From an uncultured Bacteroidales bacterium (GTDB lineage Bacteria; Bacteroidota; Bacteroidia; Bacteroidales; UBA932), in the NCBI GenBank assembly GCA_944322715.1, contig CALUPT010000004.1, positions 62,001-126,000 of the forward strand: a DNA stretch of 64,000 nt, given 5' to 3'. A program made the position numbers and the translations under genes. The notes under the pieces are model-generated. The model was not told the origin of the DNA. It searched no databases and worked only from the letters and a program-made list of their open reading frames with translations. Of the stretch, positions 22,166-32,900 are shown piece after piece (within the stretch, counting starts at the first letter, position 1; each line of letters starts with the position of its first letter).

Positions 22166-23578
22166 ATGTCAAGAAAACATCAGGAAACGATACTCGAGAA
22201 TGTGGTTGTTGAATCCGTAGCTGCGGAGGGGAAAGCCCTTGCCCATATAGATGGGGCAGTACTCTTTCTGCAATTCGCTGTGCCCGGGGACATCGTTGAT
22301 GTCAAGGTGACGAAAAAGCGCAAGAACTATATGGAAGGGTATATCCTGCGGATTGTCAAACCTTCGGAATACCGTCTGGAACCTTTCTGCAGACATTTCG
22401 GCGTATGCGGAGGCTGCAAATGGCAACCGCTTCCATACAGGATGCAACTTGAGGCCAAGCAGCAGCAGGTATATGACCAGCTTGTGAGGATAGGCCATCT
22501 CGAAGTGCCGGAGGTCTCCCCTATCATCCCTTCCGAAAAGACGGAACACTACCGCAACAAGCTGGAATTCACATTTTCGGAAAGGCGCTGGATAGAGACC
22601 TGGGAAAACCCGGATGAAATCGCTCCCGAAGACAGGGTCGGACTCGGGTTCCATGTCGGACGTTTCTTCGACAAGGTGCTGGACATAAAGCATTGCTATC
22701 TGCAGAAAGAGCCATCTGACAGCATCAGGCTGTTCATAAGGCGCTATGCCGTATCTCACGGCCTCTCTTTCTTCAACATCAGGGAACACCGGGGGCTTCT
22801 GAGGAATATGATAATCCGGACGACCGAAGCAGGAGCCACGATGCTGATAATGTGTTTCTACTATGATGATCCCGAGGCGAGAAAAGGTCTGCTCGATGCT
22901 GTGGCGGAAGCCTTTCCGCAGATAACATCCATCTATTATGTGATAAACGGCAAGGCGAATGACTCGATTGCCGACAGGGAATGCATATTATATAAAGGAG
23001 AGGAAACAATCTGCGAGGAAATGGAGGGGCTGAAGTTCCGGATAGGGCCTAAATCCTTCTACCAGACAAACACTCTCCAGGCATACAGGCTCTACAGCGT
23101 GGTCAGGGATTTTGCCTGTCTGCAGGGGAACGAAACCGTATATGACCTTTACACCGGTACGGGAACCATAGCCCAGTTCGTCTCAGGCAGGGCAAGGAAG
23201 GTGATAGGCATAGAGTATGTGCCCGAGGCAATCGAGGATGCAAAGGCGAACGCCAAGGCAAACGGCATCGCCAACTGCGAATTTTTCGCGGGCGACATGA
23301 AAGATGTCCTGAATGCGGACTTCATCGCGCAGCACGGACATCCTGATGTGGTGATACTCGATCCTCCGCGTGCCGGAATCCATCCCGATGTGGCTGAAGT
23401 AATACTTGAGGCTGCACCAGACAGAATCGTATATGTCAGCTGCAATCCTGCATCACAGGCCAGGGACCTTGCCCTCCTGGGCGAGAAATACAGGATAACC
23501 GCCGTCCAGCCTGTGGACATGTTCCCGCACACGCATCACGTCGAAAACGTGGCTGCCCTTGTCAGAAAGGGAATATGA
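22166..23578 (+). CDS. rlmD: 23S rRNA uracil-C5 methyltransferase, RlmD/RumA type
   Basis: This 470-residue enzyme starts with a TRAM RNA-binding domain (VVESVAAEGKALAHIDGAVLF). Next are the Fe-S cysteines in FCRHFGVCGGCKWQ, and then a class I SAM domain with DLYTGTGTIAQF. The catalytic loop is DPPRAGIHPD and the nucleophilic Cys lies in VYVSCNPASQARDL. It should methylate a conserved uridine (1939 type) of 23S rRNA; Bacteroidetes versions may act on related tRNA or rRNA sites. Its last 17 bases overlap the 3' end of the convergent permease gene. Confidence 0.92.
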   Translation: MSRKHQETILENVVVESVAAEGKALAHIDGAVLFLQFAVPGDIVDVKVTKKRKNYMEGYILRIVKPSEYRLEPFCRHFGVCGGCKWQPLPYRMQLEAKQQQVYDQLVRIGHLEVPEVSPIIPSEKTEHYRNKLEFTFSERRWIETWENPDEIAPEDRVGLGFHVGRFFDKVLDIKHCYLQKEPSDSIRLFIRRYAVSHGLSFFNIREHRGLLRNMIIRTTEAGATMLIMCFYYDDPEARKGLLDAVAEAFPQITSIYYVINGKANDSIADRECILYKGEETICEEMEGLKFRIGPKSFYQTNTLQAYRLYSVVRDFACLQGNETVYDLYTGTGTIAQFVSGRARKVIGIEYVPEAIEDAKANAKANGIANCEFFAGDMKDVLNADFIAQHGHPDVVILDPPRAGIHPDVAEVILEAAPDRIVYVSCNPASQARDLALLGEKYRITAVQPVDMFPHTHHVENVAALVRKGI

Positions 23579-25409
23579 GAGGAAGGACAAAGACCATTAC
23601 CGCCCCCATGATGAGCTGCAGCGGAAGGCCGACCTTGACATAGTCTCCGAACCTGTATTCTCCCGCGCTCATTACCAGGGCATTCGGCGGAGTAGAGAAC
23701 GGAGAGGCGAAACACATGCTTGCGGATACGGCCACTGCAAACAGGAACGGATAAGGACTCACGCCCATATTTACTGCAGCGCTCATCGCTATTGGAGTGA
23801 ACAGCACTGCCGTAGCCGTATTGCTCAGGAACATTGTCACGAGGGATGTGGCAAAATAGATGATGGCAAGCAGGCCTCTCGGACCGACATCCCCGAATCC
23901 ATTGAGCAGAAAACCAGATATTTCCGCCGTTATGCCCGTCTTCTCGAAGGCGACTGACATCGGGATCATGGATGCGATCAGCACCACGCTGCTCCAGTTG
24001 ATGCTCGAATAGGCCTCCTCCATATTGCGCAGGCAGCCGGTAATGACCATAAGTACGGCAGCCACGAGTACGGCAGCCACGGAAGGTATGATCTCCAGCA
24101 CCATTACCGTCACCATTGCCAGCATTATGCAGGCGGCAAGAGGCGCCTTGCTGTCCAAAGTGACCTTCGCCAGCCTTTTGCCGGGCTGGCCCACGAGCAC
24201 GAAGTCATCCGTGAAATCCTCCAGAGAGGTGATGTTCTTCCATGTACCCTGTATGAGCAGGGCATCTCCCGAGTGGAGCTTTATATCCTTGATGTCATCG
24301 TCTATGTTGTACTCCCCGGACCTCTTGATGCCAAGCACATTCACCCCGTAATGCTCCCTGAAACTGCTGTCCGCTATGGTATGGTTTATCAGATGCGACC
24401 CCGGGATGATATAAAGTTCTGCATAGCCTGTTTCGGCGGTATTCGCCTCCGCCCTGAAATCGAGCCTGTCGAACCCGAGGGCCTTCTCGCTGACGAATCT
24501 TTCAGCATTTTCCTTCTTCCCGTACATGATGAGGATATCCCCTGCCCTTACTACGCTGCCCGGACCGGCCACTTCCTCGGTGCTTGTCCTGCTGAACCTC
24601 CTTTGCGGCGCGTGTATTATACGTCCCACGCTCAGATCGTATTCCGACCCTATCCTGAGCTGATGCAGGGTCTGTCCGACGAGCGATGAACCTTCGGGAA
24701 CCAGCACTTTGAAACTCTGGTGGGCCAGATTGTATTCCTCCACGACCTCTGCTGCCGACTTGCTTTTCCTTTTGCCTTTCCCGGCAGCAGGATCTTCCTT
24801 GCGGACAAGCAGACGGCTCAGGAAAAACAGGACCGCGATGCCGACCGCTACGGCTACCGCACCTACGGGAGCGAACGAGAAGAATCCCAAGGGTTCGAGA
24901 CCTTCTGCCACCACCGCATCCTGGATGACAAGGTTCGGCGGGGTGCTGATCAGGGTGAAAAGCCCCATGCTGCTCGCAAACGCCATCGGCATCAGGTATC
25001 TTCTCGCGCTGATTCCCGAAGCGGATGCCATGCTCATGACAATCGGCATCATTACGGCCACCGTTCCGGTGTTGCTGACAAACCCGCCTATGGCCGAGGT
25101 GACGAGCATTACGAGAATGAAAAGCACGTTTTCGTTGCTGCCGCCGACCTTCATTATCCTGCCGCTGATCATCTTTGCGAGTCCTGTCCTGAAAATCCCC
25201 GCCCCCACGACAAAAAGCCCTACCATCATAATGACGACAGAACTCGAGAATCCGGAAAGCGCCTCTTCCGGAGTCAGCACTCCGGTGAGCAGAAGCGCCA
25301 GCAGAGAGCCGAGCGCCACGACATCGGAACGTATCTTGCCGCTTACGAACAATATACAGGAAAGGGCAAGCACAATGAGAGTAATCGCAGATGGAGACAT
25401 TATTGACAT
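23562..25409 (-). CDS. SLC13/DASS-type permease with two TrkA_C domains
   Basis: This 615-residue transporter has about ten to twelve membrane helices split into two bundles. Conserved loops include SNTGTVAVMMPIV and ISTPPNLVIQDAV in the first half and LSNTATAVLFTPIAM and SPFSTPPNALVMSAG in the second. Two cytoplasmic TrkA_C (RCK_C) domains lie between them (about 235-315 and 330-400). The family moves dicarboxylates, sulfate or related anions with Na+; some eukaryotic relatives with TrkA_C domains carry sulfate. The substrate here is unproven, but the shared divergent promoter with an Hdr-like/cysteate-synthase operon makes a sulfur oxyanion attractive. Its stop overlaps rlmD. Confidence 0.88.
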   Translation of the reverse strand: MSIMSPSAITLIVLALSCILFVSGKIRSDVVALGSLLALLLTGVLTPEEALSGFSSSVVIMMVGLFVVGAGIFRTGLAKMISGRIMKVGGSNENVLFILVMLVTSAIGGFVSNTGTVAVMMPIVMSMASASGISARRYLMPMAFASSMGLFTLISTPPNLVIQDAVVAEGLEPLGFFSFAPVGAVAVAVGIAVLFFLSRLLVRKEDPAAGKGKRKSKSAAEVVEEYNLAHQSFKVLVPEGSSLVGQTLHQLRIGSEYDLSVGRIIHAPQRRFSRTSTEEVAGPGSVVRAGDILIMYGKKENAERFVSEKALGFDRLDFRAEANTAETGYAELYIIPGSHLINHTIADSSFREHYGVNVLGIKRSGEYNIDDDIKDIKLHSGDALLIQGTWKNITSLEDFTDDFVLVGQPGKRLAKVTLDSKAPLAACIMLAMVTVMVLEIIPSVAAVLVAAVLMVITGCLRNMEEAYSSINWSSVVLIASMIPMSVAFEKTGITAEISGFLLNGFGDVGPRGLLAIIYFATSLVTMFLSNTATAVLFTPIAMSAAVNMGVSPYPFLFAVAVSASMCFASPFSTPPNALVMSAGEYRFGDYVKVGLPLQLIMGAVMVFVLPLIFPF

Positions 25410-25458: not shown

Positions 25459-25473
25459 GATTTGACTGTATGT

Positions 25474-26181
25474 ATGGGGAAACTTTTTGACGAACTCAGC
25501 AAGGATTACAGGGTCAGGGAAGGGCTCAAGACCTGCATAAACTGCGGCACCTGCACGGCTATCTGTCCGGCTGCGGAATTCTACAGGTATGACCCGCGCA
25601 AGATTGTCGACACAGTCCAGAGCAAGGATGAGGAAGAGATAGAGAAACTCCTGAAAAGCGACACTATATGGTATTGCGGGGAATGCATGTCCTGCGTGAC
25701 GAGATGCCCGCGCAAGAACGGACCCGGACTGGTGATCATGGCACTGAGGAACCTGTCGGCCAGACTCGGGTATTTCGTCTATTCCGAAAAGGGCCGCCAG
25801 CTCTATCCCCTGACGAAAATCCTCACAGGCAACATACTGAATTACGGATACTGCGTCTACCCTGAGACATTCAAGTGGGAAGACCACGTGGAATCAGGCC
25901 CTGTATGGAAATGGCACACGCAGCATCTGAAGGACAATTTCGACAGGCTCGGGGCCAATTATCAGGGCGATGGACCCGGCGTGCTCAGGAAGATTCCGCA
26001 GGAATCCCTCGACGAACTGAAAAGCATCTTCGATGTGACAGGGGCGACAGAGAGGATAGAGACGGTCAACAGATGTTCCGAAGAAGTCGCAAAAAGGATG
26101 GGACTCACGATGGAGGAATATTTCCGCAAGACATTCGAAGAGGCTTCCCCGGGTCATCTCAACTCCGAAACGGAAGAATGA
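25474..26181 (+). CDS. HdrC-like 4Fe-4S dicluster subunit
   Basis: This 235-residue protein carries two ferredoxin-type motifs, CINCGTCTAICP near residue 23 and CGECMSCVTRCP near residue 68. A helical C-terminal half follows. It resembles HdrC/QmoC-type soluble electron carriers that link HdrA to HdrB. The ATG at 25474 was chosen over a TTG at 25462 because it sits at the usual distance from the -7 box. It opens an operon whose next gene, the HdrB-like subunit, follows after 57 bases. Confidence 0.86.
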   Translation: MGKLFDELSKDYRVREGLKTCINCGTCTAICPAAEFYRYDPRKIVDTVQSKDEEEIEKLLKSDTIWYCGECMSCVTRCPRKNGPGLVIMALRNLSARLGYFVYSEKGRQLYPLTKILTGNILNYGYCVYPETFKWEDHVESGPVWKWHTQHLKDNFDRLGANYQGDGPGVLRKIPQESLDELKSIFDVTGATERIETVNRCSEEVAKRMGLTMEEYFRKTFEEASPGHLNSETEE

Positions 26182-26238
26182 TCCTGCCGGAATCCGGGAC
26201 ACCGGCCGGAAATCACATTTGACAGCACAATCGAACTT

Positions 26239-27309
26239 ATGATATATCAAGGCAAACAGAAAATATGGTCCGAATACCAGAAAGAGATTCCGGATGACCA
26301 CTGGTTCTATGTCCGGAGCTGCATCAGGCAGAATTTCTTTCCCGGGGCCGAAGTGATGTTCATGAAGATATGCAGGGAAGAGCTTGGCAAGGACATATAC
26401 GAGACTCCTTACCACACCACATGCGGAGGAATCGCATACCACTGCGACACTATCCCTCAGGAGACAGTGATGACAATCGTTGCCCGGCAGTTCTCCCTCA
26501 TGACCGAGGCCGGATACGAGAACTACGCCGCAAGCTGCATAACTTCATTCGGGAACTACATTGAGATTCTCGAGACATGGAACGAATTTCCCGAAGTCGA
26601 GACGAAGATAAGGGAACTGCTGTGGAAAGCCTGCAGGAGAGAGTTCGTCAAGCCTAAATATGTGGCCCATGCCAGCGACCTGATATACAAGTTCCGCAAT
26701 GACATAGCCGCCCGGGCAAAATACCGTCTGGTGAACAGAAAGACGGGCGAACCGCTCAGGGTCGTGGAGCACATCGGATGCCACTACTCGAAAATGTTCC
26801 CTTCAAAGGGGGTCGGCGGAGCGGAATACCCTTACGTGCTGTGCGGAATGATCGAAAGCTGGGGAGGAAACGTGATAGACTATCCGGAACGCCGCCACTG
26901 CTGCGGATACGGATTCCGCCAGTACCATGTCAAGGCCAACAGGGGATATTCCATCGCCAACACGCACAAGAAGTTCGAATCGATGGAGCCTTATCACCCC
27001 GACATGATCATCACCAACTGCCCGGGCTGTCCGTATTTCATGGACAGGTGGCAGTATGCCATATCGGAGATAGAAGGCAAGACATACGGGGAGAACGGCT
27101 ACGGCATTCCGGTCCTTACCTACGAGGAGGTCGCTTCCTTAGTGCTCGGATACGACCCGTGGGACATCGGCCTGCAGCTGCATCAGGTAGCCGTGGAACC
27201 TCTTTTGGACAAGATGGGGATTCCATACAACCCTGACGAGAAATACAAAGGACTGAACCATAAGGACATCATGAGGCCTGAACTGCCGGGCGTGCTGAAA
27301 TGCTGCTGA
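26239..27309 (+). CDS. HdrB-like CCG-domain subunit
   Basis: This 356-residue protein resembles heterodisulfide reductase subunit B. The second CCG motif is intact: C181, C221-C222-G223 and C261-P-G-C264. The first is altered: C28, then T61-C62-G63-G64 in place of CCGG, and C100-I-T-S103 in place of CxxC. In archaeal HdrB both motifs bind noncubane 4Fe-4S clusters that cleave the disulfide; here only one site looks complete. It lies between HdrC- and HdrA-like genes, so it is expected to be the catalytic soluble subunit, with unknown substrate. Confidence 0.85.
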   Translation: MIYQGKQKIWSEYQKEIPDDHWFYVRSCIRQNFFPGAEVMFMKICREELGKDIYETPYHTTCGGIAYHCDTIPQETVMTIVARQFSLMTEAGYENYAASCITSFGNYIEILETWNEFPEVETKIRELLWKACRREFVKPKYVAHASDLIYKFRNDIAARAKYRLVNRKTGEPLRVVEHIGCHYSKMFPSKGVGGAEYPYVLCGMIESWGGNVIDYPERRHCCGYGFRQYHVKANRGYSIANTHKKFESMEPYHPDMIITNCPGCPYFMDRWQYAISEIEGKTYGENGYGIPVLTYEEVASLVLGYDPWDIGLQLHQVAVEPLLDKMGIPYNPDEKYKGLNHKDIMRPELPGVLKCC

Positions 27310-27330
27310 TGTCCCCTTAAACCCGAACCG

Positions 27331-28347
27331 ATGAAAGAGAACATAGTGATCATAGGAGGAGGGGCGGCAGGGCTCGAGGCGGCCGGCCAGCTTATCAGGC
27401 TGGGATACTCCCCTATCATTGTAGAAAAGGAGGATCATCTTGGGGGGCATCTTGCCGAATGGCACTGTCTTTTCCCTGACATGACCCCTGCATCCGATAT
27501 CGTCGGCAGGCTTGCCGGCGCAGTCTCCGATGCGAACATTTTCACCAATACGGAAATCCTGTTCATAAACCACCTGAAGGACAGCTACAATGTGATGTTG
27601 TCCAACGGAGTCTCCATAATCGCCAGGGTTATCCTCTTCACTACCGGATTCAGGCTTTTCGATGCCGCCAGAAAGGAAGAATACGGCTATGGGATATACA
27701 ACCAGGTAATCACGAACAGTGACCTGGAGCACTGGTTCAGGACCGGAGATGACGACAGGATAGGCTCTGTTCCGATGGAGGCCGTAGGATTCGTCCACTG
27801 CGTCGGGTCGAGAGATGAGAAGGCTGGCAATGCGCAATGCTCCAAGGTCTGCTGCATTACCGCCGTCAAGCAGGCCATCGAAATGAAAAAGAGGTTCCCC
27901 GATGCCATGGTGTACTGTTTCTACATGGACCTGAGGATGTTCGGGAAGAAATACGAGGATTTCTACATCTCCGCCCAAAGGGACTACGGGGTACGTTTCA
28001 TAAGAGGCAGGGTCTCGGAAGTGAGCGAAAACATCGAGGGCAAGGTAGTCGTCAAGGCAGAGGATACCCTTGCCGGAAAACCGGTCAGGGTGACTCTCGA
28101 CCTGCTTGTCCTGATGGCGGGAATGGTCTGCAACCCTGACAGTACCAAGGTGGCATCCATGATACCGCTCCAGACGGACAGCGATGGCTTTCTCAAGAGC
28201 AAGGACAATATACTGGAGATCACGTCCTCATCCCGCAAGGGCATTTTCTACGCAGGAGCCTGCACCGGTCCCAAGACAGTACCGGAAACCCTTGCCGAAG
28301 CACGCTCGGCGGCCCTCGACATCCATAATTTCATTGAATCCCTGTAG
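27331..28347 (+). CDS. HdrA/QmoA-like FAD subunit, short form
   Basis: This 338-residue flavoprotein opens with a Rossmann FAD motif (IVIIGGGAAGLEAAGQL) and the HdrA-type EKEDHLGGHLAEW. It carries the hallmark FVHCVGSRD followed by CSKVCCITAVKQA and ends with YAGACTGPKTVPETLAEA. Full HdrA is about 650 residues with extra ferredoxin domains at both ends; none is present here, so it is closer in build to QmoA. It should distribute electrons among the Hdr-like subunits; bifurcation is possible but not shown. The next gene starts two bases after its stop. Confidence 0.86.
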   Translation: MKENIVIIGGGAAGLEAAGQLIRLGYSPIIVEKEDHLGGHLAEWHCLFPDMTPASDIVGRLAGAVSDANIFTNTEILFINHLKDSYNVMLSNGVSIIARVILFTTGFRLFDAARKEEYGYGIYNQVITNSDLEHWFRTGDDDRIGSVPMEAVGFVHCVGSRDEKAGNAQCSKVCCITAVKQAIEMKKRFPDAMVYCFYMDLRMFGKKYEDFYISAQRDYGVRFIRGRVSEVSENIEGKVVVKAEDTLAGKPVRVTLDLLVLMAGMVCNPDSTKVASMIPLQTDSDGFLKSKDNILEITSSSRKGIFYAGACTGPKTVPETLAEARSAALDIHNFIESL

Positions 28348-28349
28348 CC

Positions 28350-28682
28350 ATGGATTTCGGATTCGGCATAGCACCAAGTTCCACGATCAATCTCGACAAG
28401 GTTGACCGCAGCAGATTCACGCGGCTCCACGAACTCGAACCGGATGTGTACAAGTGCATGGCGTGCGGCTCGTGCAGTTCGACATGCCCGGCAGGAAGGT
28501 TCTCCGGGATGAGCGTGCGCAAAGTGATCCTTGCCCTCCAGAGAGGCAAGGAAAAGGAGGCGGTCAGGATGCTCAAGGGCTGCATGCTCTGCGGGAAATG
28601 CAGCATGGTATGCCCGCGAGGCATAAACACGAGGCATCTGATACTGTCGATATGTAGGATATATAATGAAGAGCAGCAGTGA
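28350..28682 (+). CDS. second HdrC-like small 4Fe-4S protein
   Basis: This 110-residue protein has two complete ferredoxin motifs, CMACGSCSSTCP near residue 36 and CMLCGKCSMVCP near residue 76. The N-terminus is DFGFGIAPSS. It is a minimal HdrC-type electron carrier. Its stop overlaps the GTG start of the membrane subunit (GTGA), which suggests translational coupling. Having two HdrC-like genes in one operon suggests one pairs with the soluble HdrAB part and the other with the membrane protein. Confidence 0.86.
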   Translation: MDFGFGIAPSSTINLDKVDRSRFTRLHELEPDVYKCMACGSCSSTCPAGRFSGMSVRKVILALQRGKEKEAVRMLKGCMLCGKCSMVCPRGINTRHLILSICRIYNEEQQ

Positions 28683-30499
28683 GAGAGAGGTTTCTGACAG
28701 GTTATAACGATTTCGTGCTGCCGTTCATGTTCGGAATGGCATTCATCCTTATATGGTGTCTTGTGGGCATGATAAGAATCATTGCGCAGCTGCCGCGTGA
28801 GGACAGGCGCCGTTTCTTCCTTTCCTTCCTCAATCCCAGGATACTTCTGAAGGACATCAAGGACATCTTCTGCGACTGCCTGTTCCATGTCAAGCTGTGG
28901 AAAAGGAACAAACTGCTGGGATACATGCACTCCAGCATCGCTTTCGGCTGGTTCATGCTCATAGTCATCGGACACATCGAAGTCTTCTTCTATGCACCCC
29001 ACAGGGCGAAACTGCTCTATTTCCCGATTTTCTTCCGCTATTTCATGGCCGAGGATGACAGCACGATGGGAGGGGCCTTCTTTTTCTTCCTGATGGACTT
29101 CTTCCTGCTTGTGGTTCTCAGCGGCATAGCGCTGGCAATGATAAAGAGGATCCATTCGAGGTTCTTCGGCATGAGGAGGACAACGAACCCGAGCTTCATG
29201 GATCTTGTAGGGCTGTATTCGCTCTGGTCCATTTTCCCGTTGAGGCTTCTGGCGGAAGGCTTTACGGCAGACATCAGCGGCGGGTCGTTCCTGACCAAAT
29301 CCCTGAACACCGTATTCCACGCTTTCCTCGGCAACCACGTGAACATGCTGCCGACATGGTGGGCCTATTCGCTCGCCCTGTGCGTATTCTTCTGCGCCCT
29401 GCCGTTCACAAGGTACATGCACATACCGACGGAAATACTTCTGATACCGCTCCGCAATGCAGGTGTGAAGATACGGCATCCGCGCAAGGGATATGCGGAA
29501 GCGGAAGTCTATGCCTGCCCGAGCTGCGGGGTATGTATCGATGCCTGTCCGATGGGCGTGATGAAGACCCATATCAAGGACACCACCGTATATCTCAACC
29601 GCCAGCTCCGCAGGCACAACGAAGAACGCATCGAAGAGATCAGCGACAAATGCCTGCTGTGCGGGAAATGCACAGCGGTCTGTCCGGTAGGAGTCGAGGG
29701 AGACAGGCTCAGAATCGCCCAGAGATCTCTCAGGCAGTACAATATCACTCCGGACTATTCCCGGATCGATACCGGGGAACTCGTCAGGGAATGTTCCTTC
29801 AGCGGCCCGACCGGCGGCAAGGTGCTGTATTTCGCGGGCTGCATGACCGCCCTTACCCCGCAGATACGCAAGGCTGTGGAATCTGTCCTGACGAAAGCCG
29901 GTATCGGATATGAAATGATGGACAGGGATGGCGGCATCTGCTGCGGCAGGCCGATGCTCATGGCGGGGAGGTTCGCTCCGGCAGAGGAAATGATAAGGAA
30001 GAACACGGAGATAATAAGGGCAAGCGGAGCCTCTACCCTGCTGCTGAGCTGTCCTATCTGCTACAGGATATTCAGGGAAAACTACAGTCTGGACGGTATT
30101 GAAGTCATACATCATACTGAATACTTCGACAGGCTGATAAGGAGCGGGGCCATCAGCCTCGGACATACGGCGACAAGATACGTGTATCACGACCCGTGCG
30201 AACTCGGCAGGGGCTGCGGCATATATGACGAACCGCGTGCAGTGATAGCCGCGGCGGGAGAACTTGTAGAGGCGGACAAGCACCATAAGGAAAGCATCTG
30301 CTGCGGAGGCAGCCTCGGAAGCCTGACTCTCGGGTTCGACAAGCGTCAGGCAATGACAGCCAATGCGCTGAACAACCTGACAAAGGCTTCACCGGACTCG
30401 ATAGTGACGGCCTGCCCTCTGTGCCTGAGCACTTTCCACAGGTATGCAGACAGACCTGTCGAAGACATTGCAGAAATTGTGGACAGAAATATGAACTAA
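28679..30499 (+). CDS. membrane HdrE-HdrD-type fusion (DsrMK-like)
   Basis: This 606-residue protein starts at GTG. Its first 250 residues hold four or five membrane helices (for example FVLPFMFGMAFILIWCLVG and FFLLVVLSGIALAMI) with His residues that could bind haem b, as in HdrE/DsrM. Two ferredoxin motifs follow (CPSCGVCIDACP near 280, CLLCGKCTAVCP near 325). Two CCG domains come last, with intact GICCGRP near 420 plus CPIC, and SICCGG near 540 plus CPLC. This is the HdrD/DsrK arrangement on one chain with its membrane partner. It should exchange electrons between menaquinone and a thiol-disulfide or sulfur substrate at the inner membrane. Confidence 0.87.
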   Translation: MRERFLTGYNDFVLPFMFGMAFILIWCLVGMIRIIAQLPREDRRRFFLSFLNPRILLKDIKDIFCDCLFHVKLWKRNKLLGYMHSSIAFGWFMLIVIGHIEVFFYAPHRAKLLYFPIFFRYFMAEDDSTMGGAFFFFLMDFFLLVVLSGIALAMIKRIHSRFFGMRRTTNPSFMDLVGLYSLWSIFPLRLLAEGFTADISGGSFLTKSLNTVFHAFLGNHVNMLPTWWAYSLALCVFFCALPFTRYMHIPTEILLIPLRNAGVKIRHPRKGYAEAEVYACPSCGVCIDACPMGVMKTHIKDTTVYLNRQLRRHNEERIEEISDKCLLCGKCTAVCPVGVEGDRLRIAQRSLRQYNITPDYSRIDTGELVRECSFSGPTGGKVLYFAGCMTALTPQIRKAVESVLTKAGIGYEMMDRDGGICCGRPMLMAGRFAPAEEMIRKNTEIIRASGASTLLLSCPICYRIFRENYSLDGIEVIHHTEYFDRLIRSGAISLGHTATRYVYHDPCELGRGCGIYDEPRAVIAAAGELVEADKHHKESICCGGSLGSLTLGFDKRQAMTANALNNLTKASPDSIVTACPLCLSTFHRYADRPVEDIAEIVDRNMN

Positions 30500-30512
30500 A
30501 ACCTGATAAATC

Positions 30513-31799
30513 ATGAAATTCACACCGACCAAGTACTCCCTGGTGAACTATTCGGACGGGAGACGGTTCGAGGATACCGGCTGGCTGCTGGCCGATCCTC
30601 AATGCAATGAACCATCGCTTGTCAGAGCGGAATACGAGAATACGGAATACACTCCCCGCGAAGACCTGGACGGATTCTACAGATATGCCGGGTGGCTTCC
30701 GATAAAAAGGACTCTCGCACATTCGCACAGACCGGTCACATACAGGAGCGAAGGCCTTGCAGGGTATCTCGGACTCGAAAACCTCTACATAACGTTTTCC
30801 GGGTATTTCCCGAAGATAGGGGCAATGATGGAGACATGCTCGTTCAAGGAGACGGAAGCGTATTCGGTATGTGCAAGGCTTCCTGAAGGCAACGAAAAGG
30901 TGCTGGTCCTGGCTTCTGCAGGAAATACCGCCAGGGCATTCGCCAAAGTATGCTCCGACAACAATATACCGGTGGTGATTTCCGTGCCTGAAGACAACAT
31001 CGGAGCCCTGTGGTTCCACAGGCCGCTCAACAGCTGCGTGAAGATAATAGCGGCCCCTGCCGGAAGCGACTATTTCGATGCCATCGCGCTTGCGGACAAA
31101 CTGAACGAATCTCCGAAATATCTTGCTGAAGGCGGAGCGAAGAATGTGGCAAGACGCGACGGTATGGGCACTACCCTTCTGTCTGCCGTGGAAGTCATCG
31201 GCAGGATACCGGATGCATATTTCCAGGCTGTCGGAAGCGGAACAGGCACGATTGCCGTATGGGAAAACAATCTGAGGCTCATTAGGGACGGGCGTTTCGG
31301 GTCGCACAAGATGCGTCTTTATCCATCGCAGAATGCCCCGTTCACGATCATGTATGATTCCTGGAAGGCGGATTCCAGAAAACTTGTGCCGCTGAGTGCC
31401 GTCGAGGCAAGGGAACAGGCTGCGGAGATCAAGGCGAAAGTGCTGTCCAACAGAAAACCGCCGTACTCCATCGCCGGAGGTCTGTACGATGCCATGAAAG
31501 ATGCGGGCGGAGACATGTACAGGGTAACGAACGATGAAATAGATTTATGGAAGGCCAAATACCATGAACTCGAAGGGATAGACATCTACTCCGCTGCGGC
31601 GGTTGCGGTATGCAGCCTGGCAAAGGCCGTGGAGGAAGGAGCAGTCAGAAAAGACGAAGTGATAATGCTTAACATCACCGGTGGAGGGGAATCCCTAACA
31701 AAGGAGCATCACGATGTCTGGTATGCAAAGCCTGATGCCGTAATAGATTCCTTCCTCCCGGCAGAAGATGTCATTGCCAGAGTCGACAGCCTCTTCTGA
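30513..31799 (+). CDS. probable cysteate synthase (threonine-synthase fold)
   Basis: This 428-residue PLP enzyme has the Schiff-base Lys in TCSFKETEAYSV (about K112), the substrate loop LASAGNTARAF, the phosphate-binding AVGSGTGTIAVWE near residue 240 and a C-terminal LNITGGGESL. The segment VTYRSEGLAGYLGLENLYI and the overall length agree better with cysteate synthase than with ordinary threonine synthase. Cysteate synthase makes L-cysteate from O-phosphoserine and sulfite, for coenzyme M in Methanosarcina and for sulfonolipids in some Bacteroidetes. It lies 13 bases after the HdrDE-like gene, as the last gene of the operon. Threonine synthase activity remains the main alternative. Confidence 0.72.
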   Translation: MKFTPTKYSLVNYSDGRRFEDTGWLLADPQCNEPSLVRAEYENTEYTPREDLDGFYRYAGWLPIKRTLAHSHRPVTYRSEGLAGYLGLENLYITFSGYFPKIGAMMETCSFKETEAYSVCARLPEGNEKVLVLASAGNTARAFAKVCSDNNIPVVISVPEDNIGALWFHRPLNSCVKIIAAPAGSDYFDAIALADKLNESPKYLAEGGAKNVARRDGMGTTLLSAVEVIGRIPDAYFQAVGSGTGTIAVWENNLRLIRDGRFGSHKMRLYPSQNAPFTIMYDSWKADSRKLVPLSAVEAREQAAEIKAKVLSNRKPPYSIAGGLYDAMKDAGGDMYRVTNDEIDLWKAKYHELEGIDIYSAAAVAVCSLAKAVEEGAVRKDEVIMLNITGGGESLTKEHHDVWYAKPDAVIDSFLPAEDVIARVDSLF

Positions 31800-31961: not shown

Positions 31962-32900
31962 ATGATAAAATCGCCCCTCCAGATCAGCGTCACACCCGAA
32001 GACACCGCCGCTGTCAGCAAAATAGAGCAGACGGCAAGGGAGACCATAGAACATATAGCCACCACCCCTCTCGAAGAACTCATACCGGAGTTGATGCGGG
32101 AAGCAGTCAACTTCGGCATCAAGGTGCTTGCCGCCTTCCTCATATACATCATTGGAGCATGGCTCATAAAGAAGATCAGGAACATGCTTCACAGGATTTT
32201 CGAGAAAAGGAAGACGGAAAAGGCCATCTCATCTTTCGTCGAAAGCCTCACAAGCATATCCCTCACGATAATCCTGATCATCATCACGGTCGGAGCCCTC
32301 GGAGTGAACACCACTTCCCTTGCGGCCCTGCTTGCCGCAGGAGGTATGGCGATAGGCATGGCCCTGAGCGGAACCGTACAGAATTTCGCCGGAGGAATAA
32401 TGATACTCGTCTTCAAGCCGTTCAAGGCAGGTGACTTCATCGAGACGGAAAACGGCTACTCGGGTACGGTATCGGATGTCAACATTTTCAGCACCAAACT
32501 TACCACTACGGACAACCGCCTTATCATCATTCCTAACGGAAGTCTCTCCAACGGAACCATCAACAACTATTCCCAGAACAAGATGCGACGCGTGGAATGG
32601 CTTGTCGGAGTGGAATACGGCACGGCTGCAAAAGATGTCAAGGCCGAACTGCAGGAAATCGTGGATTCGGAGAAAAGGGTGCTGTTCATATCCACCGGAG
32701 CGCCTGCCGACCCTCTCATTGCGGTGAATGCTCTCAAGGACAGCGCAGTGGAATACGTGGTCAGAGTCTGGGTCAGGTCAGAAGACTATTGGGATGTCTA
32801 CTACACCCTCAATGAAAAGATCTACACCCTCCTGCCTCAGAACGGCATCGGCTTCCCGTACCCGCACCTCGATGTCACCCTCTCCCGCCAGGACTCCTGA
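31962..32900 (+). CDS. MscS-family mechanosensitive channel
   Basis: This 312-residue protein has about three membrane helices. The pore helix region TSLAALLAAGGMAIGMALSG is followed by TVQNFAGGIMILVFKPFKAGDFIE, the classic MscS signature. A beta domain (TKLTTTDNRLIIIPNGSLSNG) and an alpha/beta C-terminal domain follow. It should open under membrane tension to release solutes during hypo-osmotic shock. An extra amphipathic N-terminal region of about 40 residues precedes TM1. An A/T-rich palindrome lies just upstream. Confidence 0.94.
   Translation: MIKSPLQISVTPEDTAAVSKIEQTARETIEHIATTPLEELIPELMREAVNFGIKVLAAFLIYIIGAWLIKKIRNMLHRIFEKRKTEKAISSFVESLTSISLTIILIIITVGALGVNTTSLAALLAAGGMAIGMALSGTVQNFAGGIMILVFKPFKAGDFIETENGYSGTVSDVNIFSTKLTTTDNRLIIIPNGSLSNGTINNYSQNKMRRVEWLVGVEYGTAAKDVKAELQEIVDSEKRVLFISTGAPADPLIAVNALKDSAVEYVVRVWVRSEDYWDVYYTLNEKIYTLLPQNGIGFPYPHLDVTLSRQDS

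Follow-up and report, generated by a model that had tools for sequence, protein, structure and literature searches.

The sHdr operon of Hyphomicrobium denitrificans, which encodes proteins of the heterodisulfide reductase (Hdr) type, has the gene order hdrC1B1A-hyp-hdrC2B2 (PMC6067878). The substrate of the sHdr system is sulfane sulfur bound to protein, which it oxidises with release of sulfite (PMC6067878, PMC12423496). In the stretch of DNA analysed here (the window: 64,000 nucleotides of contig CALUPT010000004.1, positions 62,001 to 126,000, from an uncultured Bacteroidales bacterium), six open reading frames (ORFs), all on the plus strand at positions 25474-31799, encode five Hdr-like proteins and a cysteate synthase. 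As in sHdr, genes for C1, B1, a short A and C2 follow one another and precede a gene for a B-type protein, and HdrA lacks N-terminal domains, its best full-length match in the Protein Data Bank (PDB) being 6tjr. However, the window operon has no hyp gene (A and C2 are 2 bases apart), in place of a separate HdrB2 there is a fusion of a membrane HdrE domain with an HdrD domain (the fusion is termed ED), no LbpA is encoded near this operon or in the other loci examined, and the role that we propose is biosynthetic, not dissimilatory.

Our analysis makes it reasonably probable that these genes constitute a sulfonolipid-pathway operon, in which a menaquinone-linked, sHdr-like complex makes sulfite from reduced sulfur for the synthase. 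Comparisons of sequence and gene context give strong support to the link between the complex and sulfonolipid synthesis. The substrate, the sulfite-making direction and menaquinone as the electron acceptor are features that we infer.

The last gene (30513..31799, +) encodes a pyridoxal phosphate (PLP) enzyme of the PALP family. It scores 447 bits against the cysteate synthase model TIGR03844 (cysteate_syn; cut-off 324.9), matching profile positions 19-395 of 398, and no threonine synthase model gives it more than 52 bits. The closest solved structure in a PDB comparison is the bacterial cysteate synthase 9k3c (572 bits), and the best threonine synthase structure, 2zsj, reaches 43 bits. A threonine synthase is ruled out by these scores. 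Where the preliminary description of this DNA had spoken of an enzyme resembling cysteate synthase and asked for a comparison with threonine synthases, the gene can now be called a cysteate synthase by family membership, and the enzyme is predicted to form cysteate from O-phosphoserine and sulfite.

The same description had placed the six genes, in this order, with gaps of 57, 21, 2, -4 and 13 bases between successive ORFs. All six ORFs and all five gaps were reproduced, and hidden Markov model (HMM) matches back the families. The hdrC1-like gene (25474..26181, +) starts at ATG 25474, with a TTG at 25462 as a possible alternative, and its ferredoxin-type product was assigned by HMM match and motifs. 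When the invariance of cysteines and histidines was scored across related sequences, both of its [4Fe-4S] motifs (C21/24/27/31 and C68/71/74/78) proved invariant in 77 sequences. The hdrB1-like protein (26239..27309, +) has an intact C-terminal CCG motif (C181, C221-C222, C261-x2-C264) and an N-terminal CCG motif reduced to three cysteines (C28, C62, C100); the best structural match of its AlphaFold2 (AF2) model is HdrB 5odc_B (TMt 0.86). The hdrA-like protein (27331..28347, +) is a short FAD subunit of 338 aa; unlike methanogen HdrA, it has neither the N-terminal nor the ferredoxin domains, and its C157, C170, C174 and C175 are invariant. It aligns end to end with 6tjr_A (349 aa; 212 bits), which we take to be an sHdrA-type protein of Hyphomicrobium, and methanogen HdrA chains match it mainly through the core, with at most 202 bits. 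The hdrC2-like protein (28350..28682, +; Fer4_8 45.6 bits) carries two [4Fe-4S] motifs, all eight cysteines of which are invariant. ED (28679..30499, +; CCG Pfam 75.9 bits) consists of a membrane cytochrome-b-like domain with invariant H70, H84 and H248, followed by two ferredoxin-type (Fer4) cluster motifs and two complete CCG motifs.

HdrABC and HdrDE of methanogens belong to the same subunit families and have CCG motifs too. However, the window HdrA is truncated, the N-terminal CCG motif of HdrB1 is degraded, HdrE and HdrD are fused, and the NCBIfam equivalog cut-offs are missed (HdrA 245/1100, HdrB 129/450 and HdrC 82/350 bits); the proteins are therefore Hdr-like rather than methanogen Hdr. 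The best PDB fold for the AF2 model of ED (pLDDT 90) is EtfD of Mycobacterium smegmatis (9ojn; whole chain, TMq 0.71, Foldseek E=1e-20), which shares its succession of membrane domain, Fer4 and CCG. In contrast to EtfD, ED is set in a five-gene Hdr operon, and no ETF gene lies within that operon.

QmoABC and DsrMK likewise join Hdr-type modules to quinones near sulfite chemistry, but the ED-containing operon scores 48.8 bits against the qmoC model (cut-off 300), its proteins also miss the DsrK cut-off, and no AprAB or Dsr partner is seen in it. These scores bear on the idea of a Qmo-like donor to a dissimilatory-type adenosine 5'-phosphosulfate (APS) reductase, by which menaquinol would reduce APS to sulfite for the synthase. 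We regard it as very unlikely. Qmo is built from HdrA/HdrC/HdrE-like parts, its partner's product would likewise be sulfite, and transporters related to sulfate carriers adjoin the operon in some genomes; against this stand the qmoC score and the fact that no AprAB or Sat was recognised in the conserved neighbourhoods, although neither was searched for genome-wide. The complex is a member of neither the sHdr, the HdrABC nor the Qmo group.

The host is a Cryptobacteroides-like member of the Bacteroidales (family UBA932); among named organisms, Candidatus Cryptobacteroides and other uncultured Bacteroidales stand closest to it. Among 200 UBA932 genomes, with the synthase counted at the TIGR03844 cut-off, 105 have the synthase, 92 have ED and 78 have both (Fisher p=5e-18). 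ED and the synthase are adjacent and on the same strand in 70 of the 78, with 15-138 bases between the end of ED and the start of the synthase profile match, and 2 further pairs lie within 4 kb. The order C1-B1-A-C2-ED is repeated in the related UBA932 loci that are long enough to show it, in most of them with the synthase directly 3'. Because this order recurs and the adjacency is so frequent, the arrangement is not a product of chance. It is also not peculiar to one genome, which, in a host without a sulfonate or sulfonolipid pathway, would have undermined the link first suggested; the gene order is kept across many genera. Most of the 14 UBA932 genomes that carry the fusion without a synthase at the TIGR03844 level have a divergent, synthase-like protein, termed CS'.

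In the capnine (sulfonolipid) pathway of Alistipes and Chryseobacterium, the described enzymes are Cys, SulA/CFAT and KCR. The window operon contributes a cysteate synthase, which acts first in the pathway, and SulA, which acts next, is encoded with an adjoining short-chain dehydrogenase (SDR) elsewhere in the host genome; in relatives, all lie in one cluster. The host genome (2.5 Mb, 99% complete) has a SulA homologue at G000:C11:107204-108436, with 73% identity to the SulA protein of a related locus, L058. The L058 query is closest to PDB entries 7u7h (545 bits), presumably the Alistipes SulA, and 28eh (529 bits), a cysteate acyltransferase; serine palmitoyltransferase reaches 236 bits. In the host protein, lysine occupies the site equivalent to Lys281, which is reported to separate SulA from serine palmitoyltransferase (PMC9304779). 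The SDR gene directly downstream is a candidate for 3-ketocapnine reductase.

Thus a cysteate acyltransferase, one of the partners for which a search of the host genome had been suggested, is present with its diagnostic residue. Others in the same list, reductases of APS or 3'-phospho-APS (PAPS) and sulfite reductase, were not found: profile searches of the genome gave no match to PF01507 (CysD, CysH; E<=1e-12) or to PF01077 (sulfite reductase). The comparison with coenzyme M synthesis and heterodisulfide recycling drawn at that stage is unsupported, the predicted end product being a sulfonolipid and not a sulfonate thiol, although no search aimed at sulfopyruvate decarboxylase was made.

In four relatives (L056, L058, L060, L062), genes for a VOC protein and SulA precede a window-type operon, with an SDR gene in three of them, to give the cluster VOC-SulA-SDR-C1-B1-A-C2-ED-CS, where CS is the standard cysteate synthase. 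Five other loci (L149, L154, L173, L174, L191) combine the complex with SulA and CS' in different arrangements, most of which include SDR and/or VOC as well. When A, B1 and ED were concatenated for a tree, L149, L154 and L174 formed a clade (support 1.0) far from that of UBA932; linkage of the complex to SulA therefore arose more than once. The VOC protein of SulA clusters is a double-domain protein of ~356 aa (L058:1697-2764 (+), L149, L154, L161, L165, L172, L173, L176), and its best model, glyoxalase I, gives only 31 bits.

CS' is a divergent fold-type-II PLP enzyme that scores 114-120 bits against TIGR03844 and falls below every threonine synthase cut-off. Its genes, for example at L149:14453-15670 (-), L172:6386-7588 (+), L158 and L191, each adjoin SulA. 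No genome has both CS' and the standard synthase (0 genomes; p=2e-9, and p=4e-4 with one genome per family). We consider CS' a probable second type of cysteate synthase.

Beyond UBA932, 290 genomes of the order from ~108 other families were sampled. ED is found in 99 of them and SulA in 213. SulA is present in 95/99 genomes with ED and in 118/191 without it (p=1e-11); with one genome per family, the figures are 34/35 and 49/72 (p=4e-4). All 21 of the SulA-type proteins that were examined have lysine at the Lys281 position. Of the 213 SulA-positive genomes, 85 contain no recognised standard synthase or CS' and may have a third source of cysteate.

CysH is a sulfite-producing reductase, and its distribution bears on what the complex supplies. 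In seven other genomes (L179, L180, L181, L182, L184, L185, L186), a cysH gene lies inside the neighbourhood of SulA and CS'; all seven proteins score above the phosphoadenylyl-sulfate reductase cut-off, and CysD is also encoded in some of these clusters. Three genomes that have the Hdr complex within the cluster instead (G235, G272, G296) have no PF01507 match. Among 79 genomes with SulA and either CS or CS', CysD/CysH is missing from 15/32 with ED and from 5/47 without it (p=5e-4; one genome per family, median p=0.007), a comparison tempered by a PF01507 sample that was picked non-randomly from the order draw and by only partial correction for phylogeny. It is mainly because of this exchange in clusters and this pattern of absence that sulfite supply is assigned to the complex. 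On balance, we favour the view that the complex forms sulfite by oxidation of reduced sulfur for a biosynthetic and not a respiratory purpose, that it replaces CysH in the clusters, and that it serves strictly anaerobic gut bacteria as a sulfite source independent of sulfate. The initial suggestion, in which a quinone-linked Hdr complex produces or processes sulfite on behalf of the synthase, is supported by the synthase's family membership, the conserved gene order, the SulA of the host, the tracking of SulA, the shared clusters and the exchange with CysH, and its alternative of a sulfonate thiol is not.

In the mechanism that we propose, C1-B1-A-C2 would sit on the E-D membrane anchor. The substrate would be reduced sulfur, probably sulfide or a persulfide carried on a protein; it would be oxidised at non-cubane [4Fe-4S] sites, from which the electrons would reach menaquinone by way of FAD, [4Fe-4S] clusters and the cytochrome-b-like domain. 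The cysteate synthase would use the sulfite at once, with O-phosphoserine, to form cysteate, which SulA would condense with acyl-ACP. The operon would thereby give an anaerobe without sulfate assimilation its own source of sulfite. The potential of the sulfite/sulfide couple is about -116 mV and that of menaquinone about -74 mV, and menaquinone-linked oxidation of sulfide to sulfite would therefore be slightly downhill; consumption of sulfite by the synthase would pull it forward.

The electrons might instead flow the other way, as in methanogens and DsrMK, with menaquinol reducing a disulfide or an S-sulfo adduct. In such a scheme, thiolysis of thiosulfate or S-sulfocysteine would free sulfite and the resulting disulfide would be recycled. 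Both CCG motifs of the fusion are complete, as in the disulfide-reducing HdrD, and sulfite would still be supplied, in keeping with both the link to the synthase and the clusters in which CysH stands in. However, no gene specific for thiosulfate or S-sulfocysteine is recognised among the recurring neighbours, and the operon is like that of the sulfur-oxidising sHdr in its gene order and its short HdrA. We consider this reductive mode unlikely.

Several further observations weigh against a sulfite-making complex dedicated to the synthase. Outside UBA932, ED shows no association with the standard synthase (p=0.49) or with CS or CS' taken together (p=0.32; one genome per family, p=0.84). A simple, direct association of ED with synthases there was dropped on these values, and the tests of SulA, CS' and CysH followed. 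Co-occurrence of the Hdr-like genes with the synthase across Bacteroidales, which the preliminary description had proposed as a check, thus holds in UBA932 and fails outside it for the synthase itself. Moreover, many genomes outside UBA932 with ED have CysD/CysH and no recognised synthase. Because the association with SulA is strong and that with synthases absent, the presence of the complex follows that of the sulfonolipid pathway more closely than that of the known synthase. These nulls would also suit an EtfD-like enzyme for general, menaquinone-linked electron transfer that shares an operon with the synthase by ancestry only; ED has the EtfD fold, the complex occurs widely in Bacteroidales, and outside sulfonolipid clusters it has no conserved neighbours. 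Such an enzyme would not account for the presence of SulA in 95/99 genomes and 34/35 families with ED, or for separate linkage to SulA clusters in distinct clades. In addition, two genomes of the host's genus (G085, G190) jointly lack SulA, the synthase and the complex with its fusion. Overall, we judge this explanation improbable.

Other difficulties for the proposed sulfite supply lie within UBA932, where 27 genomes have the synthase without the complex. Of 23 such genomes sampled, 19 have no PF01507 match, and other sources of sulfite must therefore exist. Genomes of the genus g23 (G022, G041, G058, G072, G084, G096 and others) have the synthase and SulA without the Hdr complex or CysD/CysH; their sulfite supply is explained by neither, which is a weak point of our proposal. 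No complementarity between the complex and CysD/CysH is visible among the sampled UBA932 genomes, since nearly all of them lack a PF01507 match, with the complex or without it. One genome elsewhere (G344) has cysH in the SulA cluster, yet carries the complex on another contig. Finally, known sHdr systems are associated with lbpA, and no GcvH/LbpA-like or TusA-like gene was found near the operons in the loci examined or in the window, a search that did not extend genome-wide.

Other genes recur beside the operon. An MscS-type channel gene lies downstream on the same strand (window 31962-32900 (+)) and is kept in 25 related loci. A DASS/CitMHS transporter gene with TrkA_C domains (window 23562-25409 (-)) is divergent from the operon, as it is in the closest relatives, and a SulP family transporter gene is found 3' of the synthase in four relatives (L091:11429-13138 (+)). 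Either transporter might be a carrier of sulfur oxyanions. A MarR-like regulator, recognised by eye, adjoins the Hdr operon in 11 loci (for example L090:529-1050), and proteins similar to it are encoded next to SulA (L161:11237-11668, L176:7680-8102).

A literature search that covered few subscription journals produced no work connecting sulfonolipids with heterodisulfide. The papers that join "cysteate synthase" and "heterodisulfide reductase" concern, to judge by their titles, methanogenic or methanotrophic archaea. Neither a source of sulfite nor an Hdr complex is discussed in the sulfonolipid literature examined, and no redox complex was found described for the capnine pathway in the literature searched. 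An oxygen-free sulfite source of this kind thus seems to be undescribed so far.

It is only recently that names were given to the enzymes that build sulfonolipids. Sulfonolipids from Alistipes and Odoribacter are under discussion as gut lipids with immune activity (PMC9304779). If our proposal is correct, it would identify the missing source of sulfite in anaerobes without sulfate assimilation, and would extend the idea of a sulfite-producing Hdr from dissimilatory sulfur oxidation to lipid biosynthesis. It would also give a testable role to a five-gene complex that is present in about one third of the sampled Bacteroidales genomes.

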